From contig NZ_JADEXD010000012.1 in the NCBI RefSeq assembly GCF_015207285.1, positions 1-59,871 of the forward strand: a stretch of 59,871 nt of DNA. The letters are read 5' to 3'. The notes under the pieces were generated by a model. The model was not told the DNA's origin. It saw nothing but the letters and a program-made list of their open reading frames with translations, and ran no database searches. Source of the stretch: Tychonema sp. LEGE 07203. Lineage in GTDB: Bacteria; Cyanobacteriota; Cyanobacteriia; Cyanobacteriales; Microcoleaceae. How positions within the stretch are numbered: position 1 is the stretch's first letter; each line of letters opens with the position of its first letter. The position numbers were made by a program, and so were the translations under genes. This document shows positions 43,987-59,871 of the stretch, piece after piece.

Positions 43987-46900
43987 TTATTGACAATTCA
44001 TTTGCCGAGCTCGATCGACCGCAGCCTGCAATTTTTCCCCCAGTATCCGAACGTGAGGTTCTTTTAACATCCCCAAATGGTCGCTAGGGATGTCGTGAAT
44101 CTCTATTCCTCCCGTAATTACCTCGCCCCAACCCAACTCGCGACCGACACCAAACGCGGCCGCACTCTCAACTGCCTTGAAAATAGTCGCTCTACCGGGG
44201 TAAACTCTTGCTACATAGTGTTTCAATGCGTCTTCATTGAGTTCTCGATGAGTGAAGTTTTCCAGATAAATCGGTAAGGGACGCCCGCTCGTTCTGTAAA
44301 ATTTGCACAAAATCCTCCACTGAATATGAGTAAGTAACTCGATTTTTCCCATCAGATTGCTCTTGGCTTTATTCAGAAATACACCAGGCGTCAGGTGTAA
44401 AACTTTCATCGCCCGTTGACCGCGTTTTATTGCAGGAGAATGTTTAAAAGCATCCGGGCCGTAGGTATCCAACAATCCCAGCAAAGCTACCTTTTGACCT
44501 ACATCGTGAAGTTGCCGCGCCATCTCAAAAGCTACCGTCCCCCCAAAAGATACTCCTAACAGAAAATAAGGGCCGTGCGGCTGGAAAGTTTGCATTTCTT
44601 TGATGTAATAAGCCGCCAATTCCTCAACTCGATTGGGAGGAGCCAATTTTTCATCCATAATTTGAGTAGACAATCCCAAAATTGCCTGCGATGGCTCCAA
44701 ATGATTCAGCAAAGGACGGTAAAATTCCAATCCCCTGCCGAGTACGTGAATGCAGAACAGAGGCGGTTTGTAACTCCCTGTTCCCGGTTGAATAACTACC
44801 ATTGACGGAGACGGAGACGACCATTCCGGTTCGCGGAGAATGTCAGCCAATTGTTCGACTGTTGGCGATTGGAAAATTGCAGACAGCGGCAGCTTTTTGC
44901 CGAAGACTTTTTCAACTTCAGCTAACAAGCGCGCTGCTAGCAGCGAATGTCCTCCTACCTCGAAGAAATTGTCCCGGACACCAATTGAATCGATGCCTAA
45001 AACTTGCTGCCAAATTTCTGTCACCTGGGATTCTAACTTGTCGCGGGGGGCAACAGCGATTGTTTCATCGGGCGCAACGCTAGCAGATTGCCATTTTTGA
45101 GTGGTCAAAGCGCGGCGGTCAACTTTGCCGTTGGGGTTTAAGGGCAAAGCGTCGAGAAATGCAAACCCAACAGGTATCATGTAGTCTGGCAGCCTCTGTT
45201 TCAGGAAACTCCGCAGGGTTGCTGCTGCGAGAATTTTGCCGGGGCGGGGTACTGCATAAGCTGCCAGACATTTGTTGCCGGCAGCATCTAGTTGAACTGC
45301 AATTGCCACTTGAGCGATATCTGGATGTGCGGCTAATACTGCTTCAATTTCTCCGACTTCTATGCGGAAACCGCGAATTTTTACTTGATTGTCGGTGCGT
45401 CCGAGATATTCGATATTACCGTCGGGTAGGTAGCGGGCTAAATCCCCGGTTTTATAAAGATTTGAAGAAGGAAGAAGGCTGGAAACCGATCGCTCTTCGG
45501 CATTTTCCAATCCTTTTTCTGGGTGAATCAAAGGATTTGGAATAAATCTTTCTGCTGTTAAATCCGGGCGGTTGAGATAGCCTCTGGCCAAGCCTGCACC
45601 GCCTGCATACAACTCGCCCGGAACGCCTGCAGGCACTGGCTGCAAATGCCGATCGAGTATGTAAACTTGAGTATTGGCGATCGGTCTGCCGATCGGCACC
45701 GAATTGCTAATTTGACTGTCAGGGGCGATCGTAAAACAGCAAGTAAAAGTCGTATCTTCGGTCGGCCCGTAGCCGTTAATTAATTTGCAGTTTGGAGCCT
45801 CTCTCAGCAATTTCTGGACGTGGGGAACCGATAAAACGTCGCCGCCTGCCAACAGTTGGCGCACACCCTTTAAATCCTCAATTCGATCGTCCACCATCAA
45901 GTGAAACAGTCCGGCGGTAAGCCACAAAATTGTCACATTGTATAAGCCAATTGCATCTCCCAACTCTGCCAAAGATGGAGTTCCTGGGGGAAATACAGCC
46001 AATTTCGCCCCGTTGAGCAGCGCTCCCCAAATTTCCAGCGTCGAAGCGTCGAAGGAAATCGGAGCCAGTTGCAGGAACACTTCTGCGGCGCTGAGGCTGG
46101 CAAAGTCAGTGTCTTTGACTAACCGCACTACGCCCCGGTGGACGACGCAAACGCCTTTGGGTTTGCCTGTGGAACCAGAAGTATACATTACATAAGCGAG
46201 ATTTTCCGCCTTCGCCAGATTGGCAAGATTGTCCTCACTTTTTGCGCTGATTTCCTCCCGCACCTGCTCCAAACAAACTATTTTTGCTTCAGTATCGGGC
46301 AGCTTTTCTGTTAAATGCTGTTGAGTTAACAGCACCGATAGGGCGGCATCTGACAGCATGAATTCCAGCCGCTCTTTGGGATAAGCTGGATCTAAGGGCA
46401 GGTAAGCAGAGCCGGCCTTGAGAACAGCTAACAGCGAGACGATCGCATCAATAGAGCGATCGAGACAAACACCGACTAAAACTTCCGGGCCCGCACCCAA
46501 AGTTTGCAAGTAACGGGCGAGTTGATTGGCCCGACAATTTAGCTGTTGGTAGGTTAATTGTTGCTCTCCAAAAACTAGAGCTACAGCATCGGGAGTTTGC
46601 TCTGCTTGAATTTCAAATAATTGGTGAATGCAGGCAGATTCGGGATAATTTGTTTGAGTATTGTTCCAATCAACTAATATTTTTTGTCGTTCTCCAGATG
46701 TCAAAATTGGCAAGTTTTGCAGCGGGCATTCTGGATTGGCAACTACCGCTTTTAACAACTCCTCAAATTCCGCCATGCGATCGCGAATTGTTGCCGCGTC
46801 AAACAAGTTAGTATTGTACTGGCATTCCAGCACCAATTTTTCTTTAGTTTCGCTAGCATTCACCGCCCATTCAAAATTTTCGCAAGTTCTAGGATTCGAG

Positions 46901-48087
46901 AAAACTTCAGCTTGAAAATCTGGAAAATTAAGTTGTGATTCGGCAAGCTGCACGTCCAGATTAAAAGTTACAGGTACTAAGGGAACGCGGCTGAAATCCC
47001 GCGGCAATGCTAATTTTTTGACCAAGGTACCGAAGGTAATTTGCTGCCGTTCGATCGCATCTAAAATTCCCGTGCGGCGCGATCGCAAATAATCGATAAA
47101 AGATTGTTCCCCGTCAATGCAGGTACGCAGCGGCAACAAGCTGACGCAGTGTCCGGCAAGCTGGTCTTTCCCCCCAACAAGCTGTCCCGCCGCCGGCATT
47201 CCCACAACCAAATCTTCTTGCCCGCACAAGCGGTACATAAAAGCTTCAAATCCAGCAAAGAGAATAGTAAAAAAACTGCACCTTGCTTTTTTTCCCAAGC
47301 CTTTGAGGTTAGCAACTAAATCCGGATCGACTTCCCAATCTTCCCGCGCGCCGCTGTAAGTTCGCAAAGCAGGACGAGGTTTGTCTGTCGGCAAATCCAC
47401 CACCGGAATTGTGCCGGAAAACTGGTTTAGCCAATAATTTTCAGCTTCAATAACTTCGAGACTTGTTGCTTGTTCTTCTTGTAAAATTGCGTAGTCGATA
47501 AAACTTTCTGGCTGCGAAAGATGGGCGGACAATCCTTGCTGGCGCGCCGAATAAATTGCACCCAAATCCGGAAATAGTATGCCCCATGACCAGCCGTCGC
47601 AAATAATGTGGTGGCCGGTGAGAATAATAATATGTTCTTGTTCTTGCAGCTTGATAATTTGACTGCGAAACAGCGGCCCCCGCACTAAATCGAAAGGGCG
47701 ATCGACTTCTTCGCGGCGCAAATAAGCTAATTTCGATTCGCGATCGCGATCGTCCAAAATTGACAAGTCGATCGTGGGAATATCCAGGGCGATCGCAGAA
47801 GCAATACAAAGAGTAGATCCGTCGGGACTAAATGTTGCCCGCAGCGCCTCGTGCCGCTGCACTAATTCCTGAATGGAAAATCGGAGAGATTCAACGTCGA
47901 GATTTCCTTGCAATCGCAAACACATCGATTCGTTGTAAGCACAATTTGCCTCGTCTCCCATTTGCACGGCAATCCAGATTTCTTTCTGCGATTCCGTCGC
48001 GGGTACGCAAGCAAAAAGTTCTCCGCCTGCGAAAGGATCGAAGTCTACAGCGGTTAGTTTTGGTGGTAAATCAGCAATTGTTTTCAT
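43987..48087 (-). CDS. Nonribosomal peptide synthetase, terminating module C-A-PCP-TE
   Basis: The protein has 1366 residues. The condensation domain (about 20-455) has an intact HHIICDG (His at about 160). The adenylation domain (about 475-985) has YTSGSTGKPKG near 631 and NGKVDRRAL at its end. The carrier domain has GGHSLLA (Ser at about 1045). A type I thioesterase (about 1095-1360) has GVSFGG near 1179, Asp in LLDTYGPD and His in SDHLGM. My manual reading of the specificity positions is D-A-L-W-L-G-G-T-F, closest to valine-type codes (DAFWIGGTF), so a branched aliphatic residue is likely (inference). The C domain starts PATESQKEIWIAVQMG, typical of C domains that follow a PKS-aminotransferase. 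Last gene of the cluster. ATG at 48087, inside a tandem duplication. Confidence 0.95.
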   Translation of the reverse strand: MKTIADLPPKLTAVDFDPFAGGELFACVPATESQKEIWIAVQMGDEANCAYNESMCLRLQGNLDVESLRFSIQELVQRHEALRATFSPDGSTLCIASAIALDIPTIDLSILDDRDRESKLAYLRREEVDRPFDLVRGPLFRSQIIKLQEQEHIIILTGHHIICDGWSWGILFPDLGAIYSARQQGLSAHLSQPESFIDYAILQEEQATSLEVIEAENYWLNQFSGTIPVVDLPTDKPRPALRTYSGAREDWEVDPDLVANLKGLGKKARCSFFTILFAGFEAFMYRLCGQEDLVVGMPAAGQLVGGKDQLAGHCVSLLPLRTCIDGEQSFIDYLRSRRTGILDAIERQQITFGTLVKKLALPRDFSRVPLVPVTFNLDVQLAESQLNFPDFQAEVFSNPRTCENFEWAVNASETKEKLVLECQYNTNLFDAATIRDRMAEFEELLKAVVANPECPLQNLPILTSGERQKILVDWNNTQTNYPESACIHQLFEIQAEQTPDAVALVFGEQQLTYQQLNCRANQLARYLQTLGAGPEVLVGVCLDRSIDAIVSLLAVLKAGSAYLPLDPAYPKERLEFMLSDAALSVLLTQQHLTEKLPDTEAKIVCLEQVREEISAKSEDNLANLAKAENLAYVMYTSGSTGKPKGVCVVHRGVVRLVKDTDFASLSAAEVFLQLAPISFDASTLEIWGALLNGAKLAVFPPGTPSLAELGDAIGLYNVTILWLTAGLFHLMVDDRIEDLKGVRQLLAGGDVLSVPHVQKLLREAPNCKLINGYGPTEDTTFTCCFTIAPDSQISNSVPIGRPIANTQVYILDRHLQPVPAGVPGELYAGGAGLARGYLNRPDLTAERFIPNPLIHPEKGLENAEERSVSSLLPSSNLYKTGDLARYLPDGNIEYLGRTDNQVKIRGFRIEVGEIEAVLAAHPDIAQVAIAVQLDAAGNKCLAAYAVPRPGKILAAATLRSFLKQRLPDYMIPVGFAFLDALPLNPNGKVDRRALTTQKWQSASVAPDETIAVAPRDKLESQVTEIWQQVLGIDSIGVRDNFFEVGGHSLLAARLLAEVEKVFGKKLPLSAIFQSPTVEQLADILREPEWSSPSPSMVVIQPGTGSYKPPLFCIHVLGRGLEFYRPLLNHLEPSQAILGLSTQIMDEKLAPPNRVEELAAYYIKEMQTFQPHGPYFLLGVSFGGTVAFEMARQLHDVGQKVALLGLLDTYGPDAFKHSPAIKRGQRAMKVLHLTPGVFLNKAKSNLMGKIELLTHIQWRILCKFYRTSGRPLPIYLENFTHRELNEDALKHYVARVYPGRATIFKAVESAAAFGVGRELGWGEVITGGIEIHDIPSDHLGMLKEPHVRILGEKLQAAVDRARQMNCQ

Positions 48088-48422
48088 TGGTTATTAACAG
48101 GTGAAAGATCGGATTTTTTTACCGCAGAGGGCGCAGAGAGCGCAGAGAGAATAAAGATATTATGGTAATGTGAAATCCAGTGCAATCAGCACGCTCTAAT
48201 TTCTCTCCCCTTTCTCTGATTCCTCTGCGTTCTCTGCGGTAAATCAGCAATTGTTTTTATCATTCATTAACAGGTGAAAGATCGGATTTTTTTTACCGCA
48301 GAGGGCGCAGAGAGCGCGGAGAGAAGAGGGAAGAGGGGTATTGTGGTAATGTCAAATTCAGTACAATCAGCACGCTCTAATTTCTCTCTCCTTTCTCTGA
48401 TTTCTCTGCGTTCTCTGCGGTT
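48065..48422. repeat. 173-bp tandem duplication spanning the NRPS start
   Basis: Copy A (48065-48237) and copy B (48238-48422) share GGTAAATCAGCAATTGTTTT, then AACAGGTGAAAGATCGG, then ACCGCAGAGGGCGCAGAGAG and a long TCTCTGCGTTCTCTGCGG tract. Copy A includes the real start codon and first eight codons of the NRPS. Copy B carries a decoy ATG (48263) that reads M-I-K-T-I-A-D-L-P and then leaves the frame. Confidence 0.9.
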
Positions 48423-48443
48423 ATATCTAAAAGATATTAAATC

Positions 48444-51400
48444 TTAAGATAAACTTTCTCCTACTTGTAAATGTTTGCCCGATCGCTCTGGATCTTCGAT
48501 GTACCAAGCTGGCTTTCCGTCGGGATCTCGTCCTAATTTTGCACCGGGTACGGGAGCATTGTTTGCGAAAGCAGTTGACGATTTCGATCCGTTTTGATGC
48601 AAATCGATCGCCCTCACAGTTTCCCCCGCTCCACCGGGAAAAAATCCGGCTGACTGCAATTCGGCAATACTGTTTTTAAATGCCTCCTTGATAAAAGCAA
48701 TATCTGCGTCGGAATGGGCTAGCGTCAGGAAACACGGGCGGTGATCCCAAATGTGGATTCCTTTTTCTCGCAGCGAGTAGAAGAGCAATTCTCCGTGAAT
48801 AAACTCTTGCGGGTAGGTGATTTTGAACAGGGAGCCAAAGTTTTTAACTGTGAAAGGTGCTGAGGCGCGATCGAACATGGCGTTCAATTCTGCAACTAAT
48901 TGGTCAGTTTTGGCATTGAGATCGCGCTGCAAGGAAGGCCCGCCCCGTTTCAAGTATTCGAGGGATGCTTTGGCGGCTGCTAATGTCAGCGGGTGGCGCA
49001 CAAAAGTTCCGGCAAAATAAGTAACCCCTACTTCGGGGAAAGAGTCGTCTCCGAATTGCCAAAATCCGCCATCTAATGCGTCCATCCAAGCCGATTTACC
49101 CGCAATTACCCCGATCGGCATCCCCCCGCCGACTACTTTGCCGTAGGTACCGATATCTGCTTGTACGCCGAAGTATTCTTGAGCGCCGCCCGGTGCGACT
49201 CGGAATCCGGTAATCACTTCGTCCATAATGAAGGCGCAACCGGCTTGTTCGGTAATTCGTCGCACTTCGTGGAGGAATTCTCGCGGTTGCCAGTCGGGGC
49301 GGCGGCTTTGTACGGGTTCTACCATGATGGCTGCAAACTCGCCCGCCCGCGCTTTGAGGATTTCTAGGGATTCGGGTTCGCCGTAGTCGAGGATCAGGGT
49401 GTTGTCAACGGCGGATTGGGGAATTCCCGGTGCTGCTGGGAGCGATCGCAATTTCTTGGTGCCGCGCACGATTACTTCGTCGAAATTTCCGTGATAGTCT
49501 CCGGTAAACGTGACGATCGTATTGTTGCCGGTGACGGTGCGGGCCAGCCGCATTGCGCCCAAAACTGCCTCGGAACCGGTGTTGCAGAAGGCGGCGCGAT
49601 CGTGTTTGGTCATTTCGCACACGAGTTCGGCGACTTCCCCGGCTAGCGGTGTTTGCGGCCCGATTTCAAAGCCTAATTGCATTTGGGCGGCGATCGCTTC
49701 TGTGATAAATGGCGCTGAATATCCGAAAAAGTTCGACCCGAAACCGTTGGTTAAATCGACATATTCGTTATCGTCTTTATCCCAAAGTTTGGAACCGGAC
49801 GATCGCACTGTGACAATTGGATAAACCAACTCTTTCATCGTCCGGTTAAACCCGGAAACTACGCGCGGATCGGCGAGGTGGTGGCGGTGAGTCTGAGCGT
49901 ACTGTTTCGATTTTTGGGTTCGCGCCGTGTACTGTTTGACAAATGTTTCTAAATGTGCTGTTTGCGATGGAGTTAAGGCGTCGCGATCGGACTTGTCGAT
50001 GCGGGTACCTGCACCAAACACCTTTTTTGGTTCGAGGGATTCTGCTGCGGGTGCTGCTGGGGCAGGCACGGGGGCACTGCCCCTACCGTTAGATGGTGCG
50101 GTATTTTGAGTCGGGGCGATCGGTTGTGCGGGAACAGAAACACCGCCGCCCAACATTTCTAGCTGCCGCGACATAATCTGCAACTGTTGGCCGATCAAGT
50201 ATTCGAGGTTGCTAGACGCTACGGGCTGCAAAATTTGAGGCTGCGGGCTGGGTACAGGCAGATTTGCAGGGGCGTTGGGCGCGATCGAACTGGTAATCGG
50301 TGCGGGAATCGCTGCAGGCGGTACGATCGAACTCGCAACTGGCGCAACAATTTGTTGTAGGGGCGGTGCCCCCGTGCCCGCCCCCACGGCCGCGATCGAG
50401 CTTGTTGCAGGCAAAACCTCCGGCGGCAAAGATCCGTCGATAAATTCCGATAAAGTTTCGAGACTGGGGAAAGTTTCTAGTAGCTGGCGGAAGGTAATTT
50501 TAACGTTAAATTCTTTTTGCAAGTTCAGCGCTACTTGAGTCAAAGACAGAGAATCTAAACCCATTTCTAAAAAGGTTAGATCGTCGCTGACGCTGCCTAA
50601 ATCTTCACCAGAAGTTTCTTCTAAGATATTTTTGATTTTGGGAATTAGTCTTTCTTTGCGAGCTGGTTGTTGGGTTGCGATTTGTGTATTTGGCATTGAC
50701 TGTTGACTGTTGATTGTTGATTGTTGGGAATTGGGAATTGGGAATTGGGCATGGGGCATCGGGAATTGGGAATCGGGCATCGGGAATTGGGAATTCTCCC
50801 ACTCTCCCACTCTCCCACTCTCCCCATCTCCCTCTCTCCGCATAGGTTCTATCCAGAAGCGTTTGCTCTCGAAGGGATAAGTTGGTAAGGGAAGGCGATC
50901 GCGCGTTTCTTCCTGATAAAAACTCTGCCAGTCGATCGGCACTCCGCAGAGCCAAAGCTGTCCGACTGCGCTTAACAAAGCAGTCCATTCAGCATTGTTA
51001 TCTGGATTATCGGTTAGAGAAGAAATAGCAACTTGCTGTTTCAAATCTTTCGATTGTTTGCGAGCCAAAGTAGCAGCCGTTGTTCTCGGCCCGACTTCCA
51101 AAAGCACGCGATTCGGATCTTGCCAAAGTTCTTTGATGCCGTCGGCAAAACGCACTGTCGCTCGCAAATGCCGCGCCCAATACATCGGATCAGTTGCTTG
51201 TTCCGCTGTTATCCAACTAGCAGTTACAGTCGAAACAAAGGGGATAGTTGGCGCTGACAATTGCACTTTTTTGACATATTCAGCGAATGGTTCGACGATC
51301 GAATCTACCATCGGCGAATGAAAAGCGTGGGAAGTGTGCAAGTGTTTGCAGACAATCTTTTCGCTGGCTAATTGCTGTTCAAAAAGTGCGAGATCGTCTG

Positions 51401-53501
51401 TCGGCCCAGAAACCACGCACAAATCCGGCGCATTCACCGCAGCAACTGCCAAATCCCCACTCAAGCGCCCTTCGACTTGCGCCGCCGGCAACCGTACCGA
51501 CAGCATCGAACCACCGGGCAAATCTTGCATCAAGCGCCCCCTCGCAGCCACCAGCATCAAGGCATCTTCCAGGGAAAACACGCCGGCGATAGTTGCCGCG
51601 ACAAATTCGCCGATGCTGTGCCCGATCGCACCTTGGGGAGTTACGCCCCAACTCTGCCACAGTTGAGCCAGCGCGTACTCTACAGTAAATATCGCGGGCT
51701 GAGTCAAGAAAGTTTGGCGCAGCGACTCGGCGGCTGTCGCTTCATCGCTACCGGGATACAGCACTTCGCGCAAATCTCGGCCTAGGTGCGGCTGCAAAAT
51801 TTCGGCGCAGCGATCGACCGTGGAGCGGAATAAAGGCTCAGATTCGTACAAATTCAAGCCCATATTGACGTATTGCGCCCCTTGTCCGGGAAACATGAAG
51901 ATTACCGCCGGATTTCTCGATTCGGCGCAGCGGGTTGCTGTACGCAGCGGCGGCAGGGATTCGAGTAACTCTAGGGCATCGGCGCGATCGCTGCAAACGG
52001 CGAAACGGCGGTAATTAAAGGCTTGCCGCCCGGTTTGCAGGGTGTAAGCAGCATCGGCGAGATCGATTTCTGGGTTTTCGGCGAGGTGCGATCGCAAGTT
52101 GGCGGTAGCCGCGTCTAAAGCAGATGGAGTTTTTGCCGACAGCAGCAGTAACTGCCGCGGGCGAGAAGAACTTGACGGTGCCAGCGCGGGCGCTTCTTCG
52201 AGGACAACGTGAGCGTTGGTACCGCCGACTCCAAAGGAACTGACTCCGGCTCTTCTGGGCGTTGTGCCTGCTTTCCATTCCGCAAGTTCGGCGTTGACGT
52301 AGAAAGGGCTGTTGGCAAAGTCGATCGCCGGATTCGGTGTTTGGTAGTGGAGAGTGGCGGGTATTTGTTGGTGTTTGAGGGCTAAAGCTGTTTTAATCAG
52401 CCCGGTGACTCCGGCGGCGGCGATCGTGTGTCCGAAGTTGCTTTTGACGGAGCCGATCGCGCAAAATTGTTTGGCTGAGGTTTTGAGGGCAAAAGCTTGA
52501 GTCAAAGCTGCAATTTCGATCGGATCGCCGAGGGGAGTTGCCGTGCCGTGGGTTTCGACGTAGGATATCGTTTCTGGATCTACGCCGGCCATCGCCTGGG
52601 CCATCGCGATCGCGTCTGCTTGTCCATCCACGCTGGGCGCTGCAAAGCTGACTTTGGCCGCCCCGTCGTTATTTAAACCAACGCCGCGAATTACCGCATA
52701 AATTGTATCTCTGTCGGATCTCGCTTCTTCCAAACGCTTCAGTACCACAGCCCCGCCTGCGTTGCCGAACACCGTCCCTTGGGCCTTAGCATCGAATGGT
52801 TTGCAATGTCCGTCGCTGGAAAACATCCCCCCTTCTTGATACAAATAACCGCTATTTTGGGGAGCTGTAATCGAAATTCCGCCGGCGAGAGCTAAATCGC
52901 ATTGATAGCTCATCAAGGCATAAAAAGCTTGACAAACTGCAACTAATGATGTAGAGCAAGCGGTATGGACGCTGACGCTGGGCCCTTTGAGATTGAGTTT
53001 GTAAGAAGTGCGGGTAGCAATGTAGTCTTTTTCATTTCCTACCATTACCTGAAACTCGCCCGCGCGGGAAATTATGTCCGATCGTCCGGCGATGTTGTTG
53101 GGAAAATAGGTATTGTTGCCCGTGCCGGCGTAAACTCCGATCGAGCCGTTGAAGGTATTCGGATCGCAGCCGGCATTTTCTAGGGCGGCCCAAGCTATTT
53201 CTAAAAAAACGCGCTGCTGCGGGTCGGTAATTTCGGCTTCGCGGGGACTCACGCCGAAAAATGCTGCATCAAAGCGATCGGCACCGTCAATAATGCCTCT
53301 AGCTTTGACATAATTCGGATCTTGTCTGAGATTGGGGTCAATACTGGGGTCTAGTTCTGCGTCGCTGAACAGCGCTGTAGACTCGACTCCGCCGCACAAA
53401 TTTTGCCACAATTCATCGACACTTGCAGCACCGGGAAAGCGACCTGCCATGCCAATAATTGCAATCCCGTCAAGTTCTGGATTTTCCTCGGAATTTGTCA
53501 T
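48444..53501 (-). CDS. Polyketide synthase-aminotransferase hybrid KS-AT-ACP-AMT
   Basis: The protein has 1685 residues. The ketosynthase (about 10-435) has Cys in [10 protein letters not shown] (about 181), [12 protein letters not shown] and [11 protein letters not shown]. The acyltransferase (about 535-850) has GHSIGEF near 625 and HAFHS near 724, the malonyl-CoA type. An ACP has GLDSLSL (Ser at about 980). After a Pro/Ala-rich linker comes a class III PLP aminotransferase (about 1215-1620) of the glutamate-semialdehyde-aminomutase type, with Lys in [13 protein letters not shown] (about 1452). There is no ketoreductase, dehydratase or methyltransferase. The layout parallels the McyE/iturin-type beta-amino-acyl modules. 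The linker before the ACP contains about 45 repeat-encoded residues. ATG at 53501 is supported by AGGGA nine bases upstream; a GTG/TTG-type extension to 53540 is unlikely. Confidence 0.95.
50690..50845. repeat. Simple-sequence repeat translated in frame in the PKS linker
   Basis: TGACTGTTGACTGTTGATTG units, then GGGAATTGGGAATTGGGCAT units, then CTCCCACTCTCCC units. Each family is otherwise intergenic (for example 19447-19500, 1-50, 59830-59871). They are translated as low-complexity [20 protein letters not shown] and SGRVGEW-type peptide. Confidence 0.9.
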
Positions 53502-53686
53502 CAGTAAGTCCCTATAATTCAACGTAAAAGTAAGATTCAACAGCTAGTTACATTATTTTTCTTCTTTCTATCCTCCTCTTTGAAACTACTAAATAAAGTT
53601 ATGACGGGGCGGTTGAAACCGCATCTACACATACAAAGTCGGCCTGCGCCGACTGGTTTGTAAAGGGGATCGGAAACCCGGATTTG

Positions 53687-53748
53687 CTATGACTAATGAC
53701 CAATGACTACTGACTAATGACTAATGACTAATGACTAATGACTACTAA
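53687..53748. repeat. GACTAAT heptamer tandem repeat
   Basis: About eight units of TGACTAA/TGACCAA/TGACTAC between the first NRPS and the PKS gene, ending at the stop codon of the NRPS. Same heptamer class as 17374-17654. The rest of the 247-base spacer holds an imperfect CGGGGCGGTTGAAACCGCAT segment. Confidence 0.85.
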
Positions 53749-56700
53749 CTACCGTCTTTTAGTAAATTGCTTCGATCGATTAAAAGCGGCTTTTTGTCGA
53801 TCGGCCCTATCTTGAAATTTATTACTAGACTGATTCGTACTCTCTCCTTGGTTTAAATAATTTGCTAATTGGGCGATCGTCGGATGCTGGAACAATTTCA
53901 CCACCGGCAAGTCAGTAGCTAACAGAGCTCGCACTTGCACTGCAACTTTCAGAGTCATCAGAGAATTCCCTCCAATCTCGAAGAAATTGTCATGAATCCC
54001 CACGCGATCGAGCTTCAGCAACTTAGACCAAATGCCCGCTAGCACTTTCTCCAATTCGCTTTGCGGTGCCGCGTAACTCTGGGACTGTTCTTGTCGCTGC
54101 GAGTCAGGTGCCGGCAGGGCGCGGCGGTCAATTTTGCCGCTGGGAGTCTTCGGCATCGCCTCCACAGTCACAAACACCGCAGGCACCATGTAATCGGGGA
54201 GTTGTCCTTGCAATTGGACGCGGAGGTCGGCAATTGTTAGTTGCTCTTCTGGATTGACTGCTAAATAAGCAACCAAGCGTTTTTCCCCCGGTTCGTCTTC
54301 CCGCGCTAGCACCACAGCTTGTTTAATTGCCGGATGTTTTGCGAGTGCAGTTTCGATTTCTCCCAACTCGATGCGGAAGCCGCGAATTTTGACTTGGCCG
54401 TCAATCCGTCCGATGTACTCGATGTTACCGTCGGGCAGGTAGCGGGCTAAATCTCCAGTTTTGTAAAGGCGATCTTCTGAAGGCAGAAGGGAAAAATCTG
54501 ATTTTTGTTCGATCGTGCTTTTTTCATTGTGTTTAAAAGGATTGGGAATAAATCTTTGGGCAGTCAAGTCCGGGCGGTTGAGATAGCCCCGGGCCAAACA
54601 GATACCCCCGATGTATAGTTCTCCACCTACTCCTAAAGGTACAGGCTCACCATTCTGGTGTAACAAATATATCTGCGTGTTGGCAATAGGGCGGCCGATC
54701 GCAGGCAGTGCTGGCCAATTTTCCGGCGGGCCGCTGAGGGTATAAGCTGTAACGACGTGACTCTCGGAGGGGCCGTATTGATTGTGCAGCGTACAATTTT
54801 CTAGCTGTTGAAAGAAACTGGTTATATAACGATTGACTTGCAACTGTTCGCCGGCAGTGATGACTTCGCGCAGCGATTTTGGTACTAGCTTGTAGGTATC
54901 GGCCGCTTCTGCTAAGTGTTGCAGGGCGATGAAGGGGAGAAACAATCTTTGAATTTTTTCTGTCTCGATTAGCTGCAACAAACTTTGGGCATCTCGCCGA
55001 ATTTCTTCGGTGATGAAAACGAGGGTGTCGCCCGCACACCAAGTACAAAACATTTCTTGAAATGAGACATCGAAGCTGAGAGAGGCAAATTGCAGGGTTT
55101 TGGCTGCATCTTCCAAGGTGGAGTTTTGCAGTTGCCACGCAATTAGGTTGACTAGGGCGCGGTGGGGGAGGAGAACTCCTTTGGGTTTGCCCGTGGAACC
55201 GGATGTATATATTGTATATGTTAAATTTTCTGGCGAGACGGTGCTGGTGGGGTTTTCGGTGCTGCAATTGGCGATTTCTTGCCAGTTTGCGTCCAAACAA
55301 ACGGTTTGCGCTTGATGTTCCGGCAGTGATTCTACTAAGTGAGATTGCGTGAGAATAACCGGAGTTTGGGTGTCGCCTAACATGAAAGTCAGCCTTTCTT
55401 TGGGATAGGCTGGATCTAGGGGAACGTAAGCTGCGCCTGCTTTGAGAATGCCTAAAACTGCGATCGCCATTTCTAAGGAACGTTCCATGCAAATCGCAAC
55501 TAAAACATCGGGCCCGACTCCTAATTGCTGCAAGTAATGCGCGAGTTGATTGGCTTTGGAATTGAGCTCGCGATAGGTAAGCTGCTGTTGGGAATTGTGG
55601 GGAAAAACGGCGGCAATGGCATCGGGCGATCGATCGACTTGCGCTTCAAATAATTGGTGAACGCATTTGTTGTCGGGATAATTTGCCTCAGTTTGGTTCC
55701 ACTGCTGCAATTGAGCAATTTCGGCTGCTGTCAGCATTGACAATTTGCTGATTTTCTGCTGGGGATTGGCGGCGATACTTTCTAGCAAAGTTTGCAGGTG
55801 TCCCAACATTCGGGTAAGGACGTTTTCATCGAACCGCTGGCGATCGCCCGCAATTTTTAGCAGCATTTCGTCTCCCCCGTAGCCGTAAACTGTTAGCGGA
55901 AAACTCGTCTGTTCTAAAAGCTGAAATTCTCGATTTTGCCAGTTACCGCCTAGAGTTTGTAAGGCTGCATTTATCGGAGTTTTCTCAACTACTACCAGGC
56001 TTTCAAATAAAGCTCTGCTGCGACCGATTTCGCTCCATTCTTGAATTTTTGCCAGCGGTACGTTACCGTGTTCTTGCAATGCAGTCCATTGATTTTGCAG
56101 TTGTTTCAGCCAGTCGATGGCTGGCATTTCTGGAGTGACAATTACTCTCAGCGGCAAAGTATTGATGAACAATCCTACTGCTGGTTCTATTTTTTCTCTA
56201 TTTGGCGATCGGCTGTTGCAAATAGTTCCAAATACTACATCTTGCGAACCGGAACAGCGGCTCAAAAGTAAAGCCCAGACTCCTTGCAGTAAAGTATTTA
56301 GGGTTAGTTGATGTTCTTCAATTAGGGAGTTTAAGGTTGCGGTAACAGTGCTAGAAAGCCGGATTTTTGGTGGAGTTAGCAACAGGCAAGATGCCTGTTC
56401 CACAACTGATAAGTTTTCTGGTGGAACGGGCATCTTGCCCGTTCTTGAAAAATCCCCAACCAAAGGGGTAGGATCGCACAAACCGCTTAAGTATTGCCTC
56501 CAGAATGTTTCTGCTTTCGAGATATCTTGCTGCATCCAATCGAGGCGATCTCGATCGCACCTAGGCGGTGTTAATTCTAATTGCCGATCGGCACACAGAG
56601 ATTCGTACAAGGTAAAAACTGCTTGCAAAACAGTTATTGCCGAGGTACTGTCGAGCAAAATATGGTGATAAGTCCAGATGAGTTTGTATTCGGTTTCCGC

Positions 56701-57123
56701 AACTCGGAACAAAGCCAAACGCATCAGCGGCGGTTGAGTTAGGTCAAATCCTTGCAGGCGATCGGCTTGCAAATAAGCGGAGAGTTGATTTTCCCGATCG
56801 CCCTGGGACAAACTGCGCCAGTCTTCATCAACAATTGGTACTTCGACTTGTGGGTGTACAGTTTGCACCGGCACCTCTCGATCCAACCAACTAAAACTCG
56901 TTCTCAAAACTGGATATCGATCGACACTTTGATGCCAAGCATCGACAAAAGCTGAAACATTCAATTCTTCGCCCAGGCTGCACAGTACCTGTTCGATATC
57001 TACCCCTGACTGTTGGCCCGAAAGGCCCTCGAACAACATCCCCTGCTGGAGCGGTGAAAGTTGATAGGAAGATTCGCTATCAGTTGCTACAGATTGGGGA
57101 CGGTCTGCTGCTGGCAAAGACAT
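53749..57123 (-). CDS. Nonribosomal peptide synthetase, first module C-A-PCP
   Basis: The protein has 1124 residues. The N-terminal condensation domain (about 20-460, SPLQQGMLFEGLSG) has HHILLDS in place of HHxxxDG (His at about 150; Gly replaced by Ser). The adenylation domain (about 480-990) has YTSGSTGKPKG near 637 and SGKIDRRAL. The PCP has GGNSLMT (Ser at about 1049). Specificity positions read D-V-Q-F-I-A-Q-V-V, one change (His to Gln at position 322) from the proline code DVQFIAHVV, so proline or a proline analogue is predicted (inference). Residues about 225-250 of the C domain are repeat-derived. ATG at 57123 is supported by AGG seven bases upstream. A longer frame to 57198 exists. 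This is the first gene of the cluster; nothing upstream in the window could load it. Confidence 0.94.
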   Translation of the reverse strand: MSLPAADRPQSVATDSESSYQLSPLQQGMLFEGLSGQQSGVDIEQVLCSLGEELNVSAFVDAWHQSVDRYPVLRTSFSWLDREVPVQTVHPQVEVPIVDEDWRSLSQGDRENQLSAYLQADRLQGFDLTQPPLMRLALFRVAETEYKLIWTYHHILLDSTSAITVLQAVFTLYESLCADRQLELTPPRCDRDRLDWMQQDISKAETFWRQYLSGLCDPTPLVGDFSRTGKMPVPPENLSVVEQASCLLLTPPKIRLSSTVTATLNSLIEEHQLTLNTLLQGVWALLLSRCSGSQDVVFGTICNSRSPNREKIEPAVGLFINTLPLRVIVTPEMPAIDWLKQLQNQWTALQEHGNVPLAKIQEWSEIGRSRALFESLVVVEKTPINAALQTLGGNWQNREFQLLEQTSFPLTVYGYGGDEMLLKIAGDRQRFDENVLTRMLGHLQTLLESIAANPQQKISKLSMLTAAEIAQLQQWNQTEANYPDNKCVHQLFEAQVDRSPDAIAAVFPHNSQQQLTYRELNSKANQLAHYLQQLGVGPDVLVAICMERSLEMAIAVLGILKAGAAYVPLDPAYPKERLTFMLGDTQTPVILTQSHLVESLPEHQAQTVCLDANWQEIANCSTENPTSTVSPENLTYTIYTSGSTGKPKGVLLPHRALVNLIAWQLQNSTLEDAAKTLQFASLSFDVSFQEMFCTWCAGDTLVFITEEIRRDAQSLLQLIETEKIQRLFLPFIALQHLAEAADTYKLVPKSLREVITAGEQLQVNRYITSFFQQLENCTLHNQYGPSESHVVTAYTLSGPPENWPALPAIGRPIANTQIYLLHQNGEPVPLGVGGELYIGGICLARGYLNRPDLTAQRFIPNPFKHNEKSTIEQKSDFSLLPSEDRLYKTGDLARYLPDGNIEYIGRIDGQVKIRGFRIELGEIETALAKHPAIKQAVVLAREDEPGEKRLVAYLAVNPEEQLTIADLRVQLQGQLPDYMVPAVFVTVEAMPKTPSGKIDRRALPAPDSQRQEQSQSYAAPQSELEKVLAGIWSKLLKLDRVGIHDNFFEIGGNSLMTLKVAVQVRALLATDLPVVKLFQHPTIAQLANYLNQGESTNQSSNKFQDRADRQKAAFNRSKQFTKRR
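56381..56444. repeat. Double-hairpin repeat inserted in frame in an NRPS condensation domain
   Basis: Arms AACAGGCA / TGCCTGTT with loop AGA, a spacer bounded by CCACAA and GGTGGAA, then arms AACGGGCA / TGCCCGTT with loop TCT. Translated from the minus strand as SRTGKMPVPPENL...VVEQASCLL. Same family as 10010-10078. The two hairpins have diverged from each other but kept base pairing. Confidence 0.85.
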
Positions 57124-57435
57124 ACTTACCTGCGAGTAGTGAACTAAAAACTTTGGAGCAAGTGTTACCGGATGTTTAATACTTGTTTTAATTAACAATT
57201 CAGGTCAAAGCGCGATCGCCAGCATCTGAATGTTGTGTTTTTTGTTGTAAATTTTTATCCTACGAGCCGAGGCTAACTCAAATTATACCCTCCTGTCAAC
57301 TCACACAGATCCAACCTACAAATATATTCTATGCCGATCGTTTACCGTTCCGCAACCGTGTAATTACAGAGAATACAGCCACAGTAAAAACATCGTAACG
57401 AGGGTAAGTTTTGAAAAGTTTTCAATTACCTGCTA
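57124..57435. other. Upstream region of the NRPS-PKS cluster
   Basis: A/T-rich sequence likely to contain the cluster promoter. I cannot point to a defined operator or -10/-35 pair with confidence. No gene is seen. Confidence 0.4.
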
Positions 57436-57915
57436 AGCCCGGTTTTTCAAATTCGTTAGGTAGCCAGAAACCGGGTTTCTGCGACAAATTTCGGTACCAA
57501 AAATTTAGGAAGAAACCGGGTTTCTTGAATTCGTAGGTCAGCCAGAAACCCGGTTTCTTGAATTCGTAGGTCAGCCAGAAACCCGGTTTCTGCGACAAAT
57601 TTCGGTTAGTACCAAAAATTTAGGAAGAAACCCGGTTTCTTGAATTCACTAGGCCAGCCAGAAACCCGGTTTCTGCGACAAATTTCGGTTAGTACCAAAA
57701 ATTTAGGAAGAAACCCGGTTTCTTGAATTCGTAGGCCAGCCAGAAACCCGGTTTCTTGAATTCGTAGGCCAGCCAGAAACCGGGTTTCTGCGACAAATTT
57801 CGGTACCAAAAATTTAGGAAGAAACCCGGTTTCTTGAATTCGTTGTTTCTGCGACAAATTTCGGTTAGTACCAAAAATTTAGGAAGAAACCCGGTTTCTT
57901 GAATTCACTAGGCCA
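57436..57915. repeat. GAAACCGGGTTTCT hairpin-repeat array
   Basis: At least ten copies of GAAACC(C/G)GGTTTCT, alternating with TGCGACAAATTTCGG and with ACCAAAAATTTAGGA, TTGAATTCGTAGG and TCAGCCA segments. Full units of about 80-110 bases occur roughly five times and shorter ones are interspersed. The layout differs from 40198-40700 in the spacer but shares the palindrome. Confidence 0.9.
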
Positions 57916-57931
57916 CCAGGAACCTAAATTT

Positions 57932-59680
57932 TTACGCTTTCGGCTCAACCCAAACAGTCATGCCTTCAACCCTCAAACCTTTGCCGCGAGTGCCGCAATA
58001 TTGACCGTTAGAAGTAACAGGAGTATCGCCCAGATTTTGAATGTGAGCCGTGTAGAAGACATCGTACTTATCGGCTTGCGGCCCAGTCAGCCGCGCGGCA
58101 AATCCTTCAATGCGCTTGGCTTTCCCCCGGAAACCGGCCAGTTCCCCTTCGCCGATCCAAGGAGTATCGCCAATTCCTTCAACGTGAGCCATGTACTGCA
58201 AATTTAAACCGGGAACCGGAGGCTCTATTTTAATTTGAAATCCTTCGACGCGGCGGCCTTGAGCTTTCGTACCGGCGTATTCTTTATCGCCAAAAGTTCG
58301 ATCGCCAATTCCTTGAATGTGCGCCAAAACTTTTAAACCCACAGCCGCCGCAACTCGAGAACTCGCAGATGGCGCAATCCACACTTTGATGCCCTCTATT
58401 CTCAAAGCTTTGCCGCGAGTGCCGCAGTAATCGCCGTTGGAGGACACATCGGTATCACCGATATTCTGAATGTGAGCGCTATAAAATACGTCATACTTAT
58501 CAGCTTGCGCCCCGCTCAAACGTACCGCAAATCCTTCAATTCGTTTCGCTTGACCCCGAAAACCAGCCAATTCTCCTTCGCCGATCCAAGGAGTATCGCC
58601 AACTCCTTCGACGTGAGCCATATACTCGACTGTTAAGCCGGAAATTGGCGGCTCGATATTAATTTGAAATCCTTCGACGCGCAGCCCCCGCCCCTTAGTT
58701 CCGGCGTATTCTCCAGGGCCGAAAGTTCGATCGCCAATTCCTTGAATGTGCGCCAAAACTTTCAATCCCAAACCGCCCTCTACAGGAGCTTGTTGAATCT
58801 CGCGAGGTATCCCAAACACAATGTTGCCCGATCCGGTTTTTTCCAGAGATTTAGGTACTTCCACGCTAGGAACAATAATCACTTCGTGCATCGGGGCCGT
58901 CGCGGCGGGGGATTCCAAAATCTCGATCTTTGGCGCAACTGCAACTTGTTTCGGTGCGACATTTCCCGACGGGATGATAATCACTTCCGGCAAGGCTTGG
59001 GCGCCCATTTTTGGTTCGGGCGCTGCTTTAAATGCGGGTTCGACTTTAGCCGGTGCTGCTTTTACCATCTGGGCAACGGTTAATTTGCCTCTGGAAATGG
59101 CGACGGCTATTTGTTTGCCAAAAGCGGCGCTGACTGTTTCTTCGAGGATTACCCACTGTTGGTCGTCTAATTTGTCTTGCTGTTCCACGAGGGCGAGCAC
59201 TGCTGCAACGGGGTGTTTGCCGCTGACTAAGGATTCTGCGTCGGAATGCAGTTGAGTCGGGGCGGATTCGGAAATGGCGCGCTGCAGTTCGCGGGCTTTG
59301 GCATGAACTGATTGTAGGGGCGGGAAGTCGCTTTGTTCGCGGTGGGCGATCGCCAATACTCGATCGAGCGCTTTCAATGCTGCATCGCGAATTTCTGCTT
59401 TACCTTCGGAAGCTGTTGCTGTCTCGACTAAGTTTTGAATGTCTTTGAGCGAAGTAATTTCCCCCGGTGCCAGGGCGGATTTGTTGAGTTCGAGAGCTTG
59501 TTTTTGGACTCCTGCAAAGTTTCTGCTGTAGCTGGCAATTTCTTGCAGTAAGCTGTCTGAGGGAGGAAGACCCGAGTCTTGCAGTTGTCTGGCTGCTTGG
59601 GACAGGCGATCGGCTAAATTACCATAAGTTTCCGATAATCGGGCTATTTGTTGTAACAAATCTTTATGTGCTGCTTCCAT
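57932..59680 (-). CDS. ChW-repeat protein with helical N-terminal region
   Basis: The protein has 582 residues. Residues 1-190 are largely helical and hydrophilic (LLQQIARLSETYGNLADRLS...). A low-complexity Pro/Ala/Val segment follows to about 300. Residues about 302-580 contain six ChW-type (PF07538-like) repeats of about 46 residues, in two sets of three. The repeat core is AHIQGIGDRTF...AGTKGRGLRVEGFQI; the conserved W of the classical repeat is replaced by D. ChW repeats were first named in clostridial surface proteins. No signal peptide is seen at the chosen start, ATG 59680. An extension to 59869 would be repeat-encoded. Function unknown; a binding or scaffold role is likely (inference). 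Confidence 0.85.
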   Translation of the reverse strand: MEAAHKDLLQQIARLSETYGNLADRLSQAARQLQDSGLPPSDSLLQEIASYSRNFAGVQKQALELNKSALAPGEITSLKDIQNLVETATASEGKAEIRDAALKALDRVLAIAHREQSDFPPLQSVHAKARELQRAISESAPTQLHSDAESLVSGKHPVAAVLALVEQQDKLDDQQWVILEETVSAAFGKQIAVAISRGKLTVAQMVKAAPAKVEPAFKAAPEPKMGAQALPEVIIIPSGNVAPKQVAVAPKIEILESPAATAPMHEVIIVPSVEVPKSLEKTGSGNIVFGIPREIQQAPVEGGLGLKVLAHIQGIGDRTFGPGEYAGTKGRGLRVEGFQINIEPPISGLTVEYMAHVEGVGDTPWIGEGELAGFRGQAKRIEGFAVRLSGAQADKYDVFYSAHIQNIGDTDVSSNGDYCGTRGKALRIEGIKVWIAPSASSRVAAAVGLKVLAHIQGIGDRTFGDKEYAGTKAQGRRVEGFQIKIEPPVPGLNLQYMAHVEGIGDTPWIGEGELAGFRGKAKRIEGFAARLTGPQADKYDVFYTAHIQNLGDTPVTSNGQYCGTRGKGLRVEGMTVWVEPKA

Positions 59681-59871
59681 AGGGGTCTTGCCGTAAATAT
59701 TTAACTTGCTGATTATAGACGTTGAGCGTCTTCTGAAGGAAGAACCAAGAGGCAAGAGGGAATACGGAACAAGGAAAAAAGAAGAATGAAAAAAGAAAAA
59801 AGAAGAATGAAAAAGGAATATTTTCCGAATCTCCCACTCTCGGACACTCCCCATCTCCCACCCCCCCACTC
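59681..59871. repeat. Low-complexity repeats at window end
   Basis: AAAAAAGAAGAATGAAAAA units and CTCCCACTCTC/CCCCATCTCCCAC units, the reverse complement of the G-rich repeat at 11-50. No gene is seen. Confidence 0.75.

Follow-up and report, generated by a model that had tools for sequence, protein, structure and literature searches.

Judged from its sequence, the three-gene cluster described here belongs to an uncharacterised variant of the β-aminotransferase NRPS-PKS systems and is predicted to start from proline. It lies within the window, by which we mean the whole stretch of 59,871 nucleotides that was analysed. We consider it fairly probable that the cluster encodes a self-contained line of three proteins, in which prolyl-PCP would be extended with malonate and transaminated to a β,γ-diamino acid that would be joined to valine and released by the thioesterase (TE). 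The product would most likely be 3-amino-3-(pyrrolidin-2-yl)propanoyl-valine or a ring-closed form of it. The domain order, the substrate codes and the chemical logic of the original prediction held up. Its implied singularity did not: the arrangement is less singular than had been thought, as many genomes from several phyla carry the same core, which rules out a unique cluster, and matching layouts appear in PMC3870968 and, as a valine-started version described in silico, in PMC11356792.

Layout and genome setting of the cluster

Along the direction of transcription, the domains of the three minus-strand genes run C-A-PCP, KS-AT-ACP-AMT and C-A-PCP-TE (Table 1). This is the order that had been predicted, and the Pfam scores of all listed domains in the three proteins lie far past the cut-offs. 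Ketoreductase, dehydratase and methyltransferase had been described as missing, and indeed Pfam revealed no KR, DH, ER or MT domain in any cluster protein. As judged by motif patterns, the catalytic motifs are intact in all cluster domains but the first C domain. The end of the cluster at 57123 coincides, by eye, with the ATG of gene 1. The mechanical ORF of this gene opens upstream of it, at 57198, and that of gene 2 opens at 53540.

Table 1. Genes and domains of the cluster, in the order of transcription.
Feature	Position	Strand	Evidence
Gene 1, starter module C-A-PCP	53749..57123	-	Pfam; ATG by eye
N-terminal condensation domain, HHILLDS, probably vestigial	55708..57075	-	Condensation 2.1e-77; motif; omega; PDB match
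Adenylation domain 1, code DVQFIAQVV (proline-like)	54133..55650	-	AMP-binding 5.2e-84; code reading
PCP 1	53854..54045	-	PF00550 PP-binding 3.6e-14; serine present
Gene 2, PKS module KS-AT-ACP-AMT	48444..53501	-	Pfam; Met at 53501 placed by comparison with the N-termini of relatives
Ketosynthase	52344..53465	-	KS 2.3e-69; TACST, ETHGTAT, KSNFGH (Cys and both His motifs)
Acyltransferase, malonyl type	50994..51902	-	AT 4.1e-56; GHSIGE, HAFH
Acyl carrier protein	50439..50639	-	PP-binding 1.5e-13; GLDSL
AMT, class III, glutamate-1-semialdehyde-aminomutase type	48621..49925	-	aminotransferase 2.9e-50; lysine in TYGKVVGGG
Gene 3, terminal module C-A-PCP-TE	43987..48087	-	Pfam
Downstream condensation domain, HHIICDG intact; expected to join the β-aminoacyl-ACP chain to residue 2	46675..48006	-	Condensation 4.3e-92
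Adenylation domain 2, code DALWLGGTF (valine-like)	45124..46617	-	AMP-binding 2.3e-90; code reading
PCP 2	44839..45027	-	PP-binding 1.8e-17; serine present
Thioesterase	44062..44763	-	Thioesterase 1.6e-23; GVSFGG, DHLGM

The window is the complete contig C225 of a draft assembly of 6.6 Mb in 351 contigs (completeness 99.83%). Upstream of gene 1, less than 3 kb of the contig remains. In this draft, the condensation family matched only the two C domains of the cluster and no further ones. The genome has two further KS matches; their open frames span 423 and 402 aa, so they are not modular. Six AMP-binding proteins are encoded in the genome: two in the cluster, one orphan A-T-TE protein and three others whose frames span 529-670 aa. 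The orphan (contig C11) was considered as an alternative source of the starter and rejected, as it has no obvious link to the cluster. Additional biosynthetic genes past the contig end were also rejected, since the region upstream of the cluster in the relatives L114 and L125 holds an ortholog of the ChW gene together with genes that look non-biosynthetic by eye. Three proteins of the genome have an ACPS fold; an Sfp-type PPTase may be among them, encoded in a frame of 264 aa. The analysis of neighbouring proteins took in 146 of 154 proteins, the other eight belonging to L110. Four Microcoleaceae relatives (L114, L051, L116 and L099) carry a Cupin_8/JmjC gene; when its remnants were sought with tblastn, the window gave nothing above chance level (E 5.8 and 7.7), and L119, L121 and L126 gave no match.

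Aminotransferase lineage and starter codes

Relatives of the cluster were found in Nostoc, Leptolyngbya and Kamptonema, at 51 loci of Bacteroidota and in a few other phyla. The AMT of the window matched the structure of the MycA AMT (6kfm) with 442 bits, and its TYGKVVGGG motif aligned with TYGKIIGGG of MycA. In a tree of 34 rows, which were labelled from architecture and include some without a visible feeding module, one 100/100 branch split 24 amino-acid-fed AMTs from 10 acyl-fed or other AMTs. The window enzyme fell on the aminoacyl-carrier-fed side of this branch, and the McyE-like, MycA and other AMTs on the opposite side. It also fell inside the amino-acid-fed clade in a tree of 97 rows (94 different), from which AMT matches shorter than about 350 residues had been dropped. 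The larger tree keeps two same-genome pairs of loci (L055 with L018, L062 with L019); those left out of it (L001-L007, L009, L010, L034, L035, L037, L129 and L130) are mostly fragments or second copies of kept loci, L007 being a separate genome. As in the amino-acid-fed lineage, an A-PCP lies directly upstream of KS-AT-ACP-AMT in the window. The position of the AMT in a lineage fed by A-PCP supports as plausible the predicted logic of an aminoacyl-PCP, malonate extension and β-transamination.

Four residues, singled out of 12 positions from the AMT comparison, are conserved in the lineage and mostly differ in other AMTs (N1265, E1292, E1355 and H1596 in the numbering of the window protein). 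When strict motif patterns were applied to 100 ORFs, some of them partial, HAFH was matched in 95, the first KS His in 91, the AMT lysine in 87, the KS Cys in 86 and the second KS His in 53. With slightly less than even confidence, we propose an old PKS-AMT lineage, diverse in cyanobacteria and passed from them to Bacteroidota and other phyla, that would be specialised for γ-amino-β-ketoacyl chains. Such a specialisation would allow one enzyme family to provide a series of natural β,γ-diamino acids, with proline, valine, threonine and others as starters. The conserved residues would possibly hold the γ-ammonium group, and the peptide may decorate a glycan in some hosts.

The codes of the two adenylation domains agree with the prediction of a proline-like first and a valine-like second residue. 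DVQFIAQVV of the window differs from the proline code at one position, residue 322 being Q instead of H, so that the starter could also be pipecolate or a different imino acid. The starter code of the Kamptonema-type loci L038 and L116 is DVQFVAHVV, which we take to be specific for proline. Of the 96 loci counted, 83 had a readable starter, and in 27 of these its code was of the type DVQ[F/I]..[Q/H]V. This count kept L034 and L126, both from one genome, and omitted 17 locus ids; L007 (DVQFVAHVV) and L024 (DAFWLGGTF), both in the omitted group, do not duplicate any kept locus.

The first condensation domain and the fate of the chain

Whether the proline nitrogen is free is decided by the N-terminal C domain, which the original prediction had left unexplained. 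Its motif is HHILLDS instead of HHxxxDG, and the Microcoleaceae relatives that were read have HHxxxD[S/N] (HHILLDS or HHILLDN) at this place. Omega was higher for the first C (0.28-0.40) than for the downstream C (0.15-0.22) in four of four window pairs (494-498 of 500 bootstraps). A second set, which has one pair in common with the first, gave the same order in six of six pairs (451-500 of 500). The first C did not clearly exceed the TE (304-478 of 500 bootstraps) or the ACP-AMT linker (68-436 of 500) in omega. Relatives may have no starter C at all, a truncated one (L067, L171, L173) or one that lacks an HH motif (L172). The motif, the relaxed selection and the loss or truncation in relatives suggest that the first C domain is probably vestigial, although its omega is well below 1 and it may keep some role. 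A domain that no longer condenses would leave the proline nitrogen free.

If the first C were instead an active starter or in-trans domain that acylates proline from a fatty acyl-CoA or another donor, the product would be an N-acyl-prolyl lipodipeptide with only the β-amine free. The full length of the domain and the degree of purifying selection on it are in line with such a role, and some AMT-containing systems yield lipopeptides, reportedly including puwainaphycin. However, the altered motif shared with the Microcoleaceae relatives and the truncation or absence of the starter C elsewhere argue against acylation. Among solved C domains, moreover, the best PDB match was the C domain of McyB (303 bits), whereas the CDA starter C reached 22.9 bits, and the genome encodes the six AMP-binding proteins listed above. 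We consider an acylated product unlikely.

In the preferred pathway, A1 would load L-proline or a closely related cyclic imino acid onto PCP1, with the N-terminal C retained as a structural remnant. The KS would accept the prolyl-PCP, and extension with malonate would give a γ-amino-β-keto thioester. The AMT would then turn the β-ketone into an amine, generating 3-amino-3-(pyrrolidin-2-yl)propanoyl-ACP. Coupling of this diamino acid to valine by the last module and cleavage by the TE would free a small basic dipeptide-like product, as the acid or ring-closed. For the dipeptide with valine the formula would be C12H23N3O3, with a calculated [M+H]+ of about 258.18, or about 240.17 when dehydrated. 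Priming of the carrier domains would fall to a PPTase whose gene lies elsewhere in the genome.

A free γ-amine beside a thioester could, as a caveat, cyclise ahead of the last condensation. Attack of the proline nitrogen on the β-aminoacyl (or β-ketoacyl) thioester would off-load the chain early as 1-aminopyrrolizidin-3-one (or a bicyclic tetramate), and the last module would act rarely or on another form. Five-membered ring formation from a γ-amine is chemically easy, and the amine would be available if the first C is vestigial. We nevertheless regard early off-loading as improbable: the downstream C is intact and constrained, and a single C-A-T-TE protein follows the AMT in 36 of the 51 Bacteroidota loci, so the chain would normally pass on. 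We think it very unlikely that the cluster, though real, is silent or decaying in Tychonema sp. LEGE 07203. The degenerated first C would fit decay, as would the split starter gene of the T. bourrellyi relative (L051) and the patchy occurrence in the genus, where an AMT of at least 57% identity is present in 4 of 15 genomes, the own genome included. Against this stand the intact catalytic motifs everywhere else and the within-genus omega of 0.05-0.07 for the KS and 0.08-0.15 for the AMT.

Vicinal diamines are rare among natural products. The system is compact, with three proteins and one extension step, and might be amenable to reconstitution in vitro; its AMT would serve as a new biocatalyst for diamines. 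The occurrence in several phyla points to an uncharted range of small basic peptides.

Comparison with known systems

Matching layouts were tabulated in a catalogue of 2013 (PMC3870968, Table 2), which gives A-CP-KS-AT-CP-PLP1, C-A-CP-KS-AT-CP-PLP1-C-(HxxPF)-A-CP and KS-AT-CP-PLP1. Its entries from Pedobacter heparinus (C6XWU5), Salinisphaera (F7QBN5) and Thiocapsa (F9UAS6) match the cluster when compared by layout alone, and stand there as catalogue entries without tested chemistry (PMC3870968). A valine-started mixed PKS/NRPS cluster of Pseudanabaena galeata CCNP1313 was described in silico in 2024 (PMC11356792). As in the window, a C-A-PCP feeds a PKS module with a C-terminal AMT, NRPS and a terminal TE follow, and the combination of amino acid, malonate and β-transamination was inferred in silico. 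Unlike in the window, the valine starter is fused with the PKS in one protein, and there are two downstream NRPS modules. The section on this cluster terms the moiety β-amino and names no isolated product (PMC11356792).

In the open-licence literature, we found no published product for any relative of the cluster, which is weak evidence of absence, and no relevant literature for the PDB entries 8XJU, 8XJY and 8XJZ. No compound or enzyme activity is known to us for any member of the family and, to our knowledge, no characterised assembly line makes a β,γ-diamino acid by extension of an amino acid and transamination. McyE (microcystin) and MycA (mycosubtilin) resemble the window in that the ACP of a PKS module is followed by a class III AMT, which makes a β-amino acyl chain. 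Their modules, however, are fed by an acyl or polyketide chain, whereas the PKS module of the window is fed by a C-A-PCP gene, and their AMTs have other residues at the positions conserved in the window lineage. Statine-type NRPS-PKS units share the extension of an amino acid with malonate to a γ-amino acid; there, a KR reduces the ketone to a hydroxyl group, whereas here it would be aminated.

The three-gene line and its surroundings

The window spans contig C225 in full and comes from a cyanobacterial draft genome of 6.61 Mb in 351 contigs, with a completeness of 99.83%. Pfam searches of the window proteins confirmed the originally predicted line of three genes on the minus strand, encoding C-A-PCP, KS-AT-ACP-AMT (AMT, class III aminotransferase) and C-A-PCP-TE. 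Motif patterns indicated intact catalytic motifs throughout, except in the first C domain (gene 1), which reads HHILLDS. The AT of gene 2 carries HAFH, and malonyl specificity is expected. A cobS gene lies downstream of the cluster and a ChW-repeat protein gene upstream. By eye, proteins sharing the N-terminal sequence of this ChW protein occupy the same position in L114 and L125, two loci of relatives with a related AMT, and the stretch separating genes 2 and 3 seems to contain a duplicated segment in which the opening codons of gene 3 occur once more. A protein similar to the orphan A-T-TE protein of this genome lies close to the L063 copy; those at the edges of L067 and L105 are cut and may be longer.

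Features of the window and of related loci (L, coordinates counted within each locus)
Feature	Location	Remarks
ChW-repeat protein, contig end	window 57932-59869	six Clostridial hydrophobic W (ChW) repeat matches
Direct-repeat array	window 57435-57906	~81-base units on AAACCCGGTTTCTT motif; between gene 1 and ChW-repeat gene
Apparent duplicated stretch	window 48088-48443	gap between genes 2 and 3, by eye
Cupin_8/JmjC-type putative hydroxylase	L114:15402-16274	in or beside cluster
Cupin_8/JmjC-type putative hydroxylase	L051:11752-12624	in or beside cluster
Cupin_8/JmjC-type putative hydroxylase	L116:859-1734	in or beside cluster
Cupin_8/JmjC-type putative hydroxylase	L099:3883-4752	in or beside cluster
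Orphan A-T-TE protein	L131:6334-9111	same genome as window, contig C11; 925 aa
Family 2 glycosyltransferase domain	L062:3503-4768	cyanobacterial; N-terminus of starter protein
Split starter gene	L051:2943-6415	Tychonema bourrellyi; two reading frames
PPTase-type protein	L108:18838-19581	PF01648

Substrates, proposed chemistry and the first C domain

The nine-residue codes of the window are DVQFIAQVV for A1 (gene 1) and DALWLGGTF for A2 (gene 3); proline is specified by DVQ[L/F]IAHVV and valine by DA[F/L]W[I/L]GGTF. The Q-for-H change in A1 is common to same-genus relatives and many Bacteroidota starters, and the Kamptonema-type orthologs L038 and L116 have DVQFVAHVV. From these codes, the likely A1 substrate is proline or a closely related imino acid. 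Among 96 loci counted, 27 of the 83 with a readable starter have codes of the form DVQ[F/I]..[Q/H]V; further starter codes resemble those for valine, threonine, asparagine, aspartate and glycine. A large number are unassigned. Of the 41 Bacteroidota loci with a downstream code that was read, 28 have a second-module code of the DILQ type, which is associated with glycine.

In the proposed mechanism, proline would be loaded as prolyl-PCP, extended with malonate, transaminated at the beta position, condensed with valine and released by the TE. The domain chemistry behind each step is known from other systems. The proposal derives from that chemistry, and PMC11356792 draws the same inference. Lactam formation instead of normal chain passage, which a free amine on the chain would favour, is a serious alternative. 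For this family the diamino-acid chemistry is a prediction, soundly argued and now with more support than it had at first.

Among solved C domains, the first C domain matched that of McyB best (303 bits), compared with 22.9 bits for the CDA starter C. HHxxxD[S/N] was read in the first C domain of Microcoleaceae relatives. Within the genus, omega was 0.28-0.40 for the first C domain, 0.15-0.22 for the downstream C (gene 3), 0.14-0.23 for A1, 0.05-0.07 for KS and 0.08-0.15 for AMT. Omega of the first C domain was above that of its downstream counterpart in 494-498 of 500 bootstraps (four window pairs) and in 451-500 of 500 (six pairs of a further set, one repeating an earlier pair), the pairs having sequences in common and not being independent. 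The TE and the ACP-AMT linker show similar omega, which speaks against a simple reading of these values. In the listed Bacteroidota loci (except L067) and in Nostoc and related f33 loci, the starter A begins 12-66 residues past the first Met; only the C-domain end is retained in the L067, L171 and L173 starters, and the L172 starter has a C domain without the HH motif. The simplest account is that the domain lost its role once the module turned starter. PMC11356792 notes, as a general point, that first C domains typically have an inactive active site.

Relatives across phyla

The AMTs closest to that of the window come from same-genus genomes and Microcoleus records, and the best matches include Tychonema sp. 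LEGE 06208 and Lyngbya sp. CCAP 1446/10. Scanning genome contigs with the AMT gave 117 relatives, and the analysis continued with the 80 best. Judged by record titles, Bacteroidota account for 51 of these 80. In 36 of the 51, A-T-KS-AT-T-AMT precedes a single C-A-T-TE protein; the remaining loci either are truncated at a contig or locus end or have a different downstream arrangement. Nostoc loci, where complete, read A-T, KS-AT-T-AMT, C-A-T, C-A-T-TE. Further relatives come from records of Planctomycetota, Verrucomicrobiota, Kiritimatiellota and Bdellovibrionota. Within the window's taxonomic order, 24 of 282 genomes encode an AMT with 57% identity or more, and 97 encode any AMT at E <= 1e-70. 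For a Mucilaginibacter AMT, the Bacteroidota figures are 14 of 395 genomes at that identity (the query's own included) and 16 of 395 at E <= 1e-120.

In a 34-row AMT tree, one 100/100 branch parts 24 AMTs of the amino-acid-fed group from 10 acyl-fed or other AMTs, labels being assigned from the architectures read; no feeding module is visible in L064 and L097 (amino-acid-fed group, cut contigs) or in L163, L166 and L168 (other group, beginning with KS). In a 97-row tree, midpoint-rooted on a long branch, the Bacteroidota AMTs are nested within cyanobacterial diversity, which suggests transfer. Aligning 96 family AMTs with 11 others revealed 12 differing positions. In window PKS-AMT numbering, these include N1265 (89/96; M in 10/11 others), E1292 (92/96; 0/11), E1355 (96/96; also E in 3/11) and H1596 (95/96; Y in 10/11). 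Our guess is that these four residues contact the gamma-amine.

In a similarity clustering, 12 of the 89 loci compared, some of them from Bacteroidota, have relatives of the Cupin_8/JmjC-type protein nearby (two members Pfam-checked); no such gene was found in the window. L114, L051, L116 and L099, which carry it, are Microcoleaceae loci; in L114 and L051 it sits between the PKS gene and the last NRPS gene. Since the L051 starter gene is split, that cluster may be inactive in the Tychonema bourrellyi strain. For 34 of the 51 Bacteroidota loci, the flanks retrieved include a member of a PPTase-type protein cluster (one member tested). Several Bacteroidota copies (for example L067, L072, L090 and L113) sit among glycosyltransferase and polysaccharide genes. 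Of the 146 proteins taken from the neighbourhoods of 20 loci, 11 matched Glycos_transf_2, a figure without a control set. The family's product might be glycan-linked.

Comparison with known systems

The open-licence literature yielded no product for these assembly lines, an absence that is weak evidence, and the passages of PMC12184294 consulted do not mention the window cluster. The singularity implied by the original prediction does not hold: besides the relatives in several phyla, PMC3870968 tabulates layouts of this kind for Pedobacter, Salinisphaera and Thiocapsa, and PMC11356792 describes a valine-started version from Pseudanabaena galeata with an inferred beta-amino unit. The window line, probably proline-started, belongs to an uncharacterised variant of beta-AMT hybrid assembly lines that extends across phyla.
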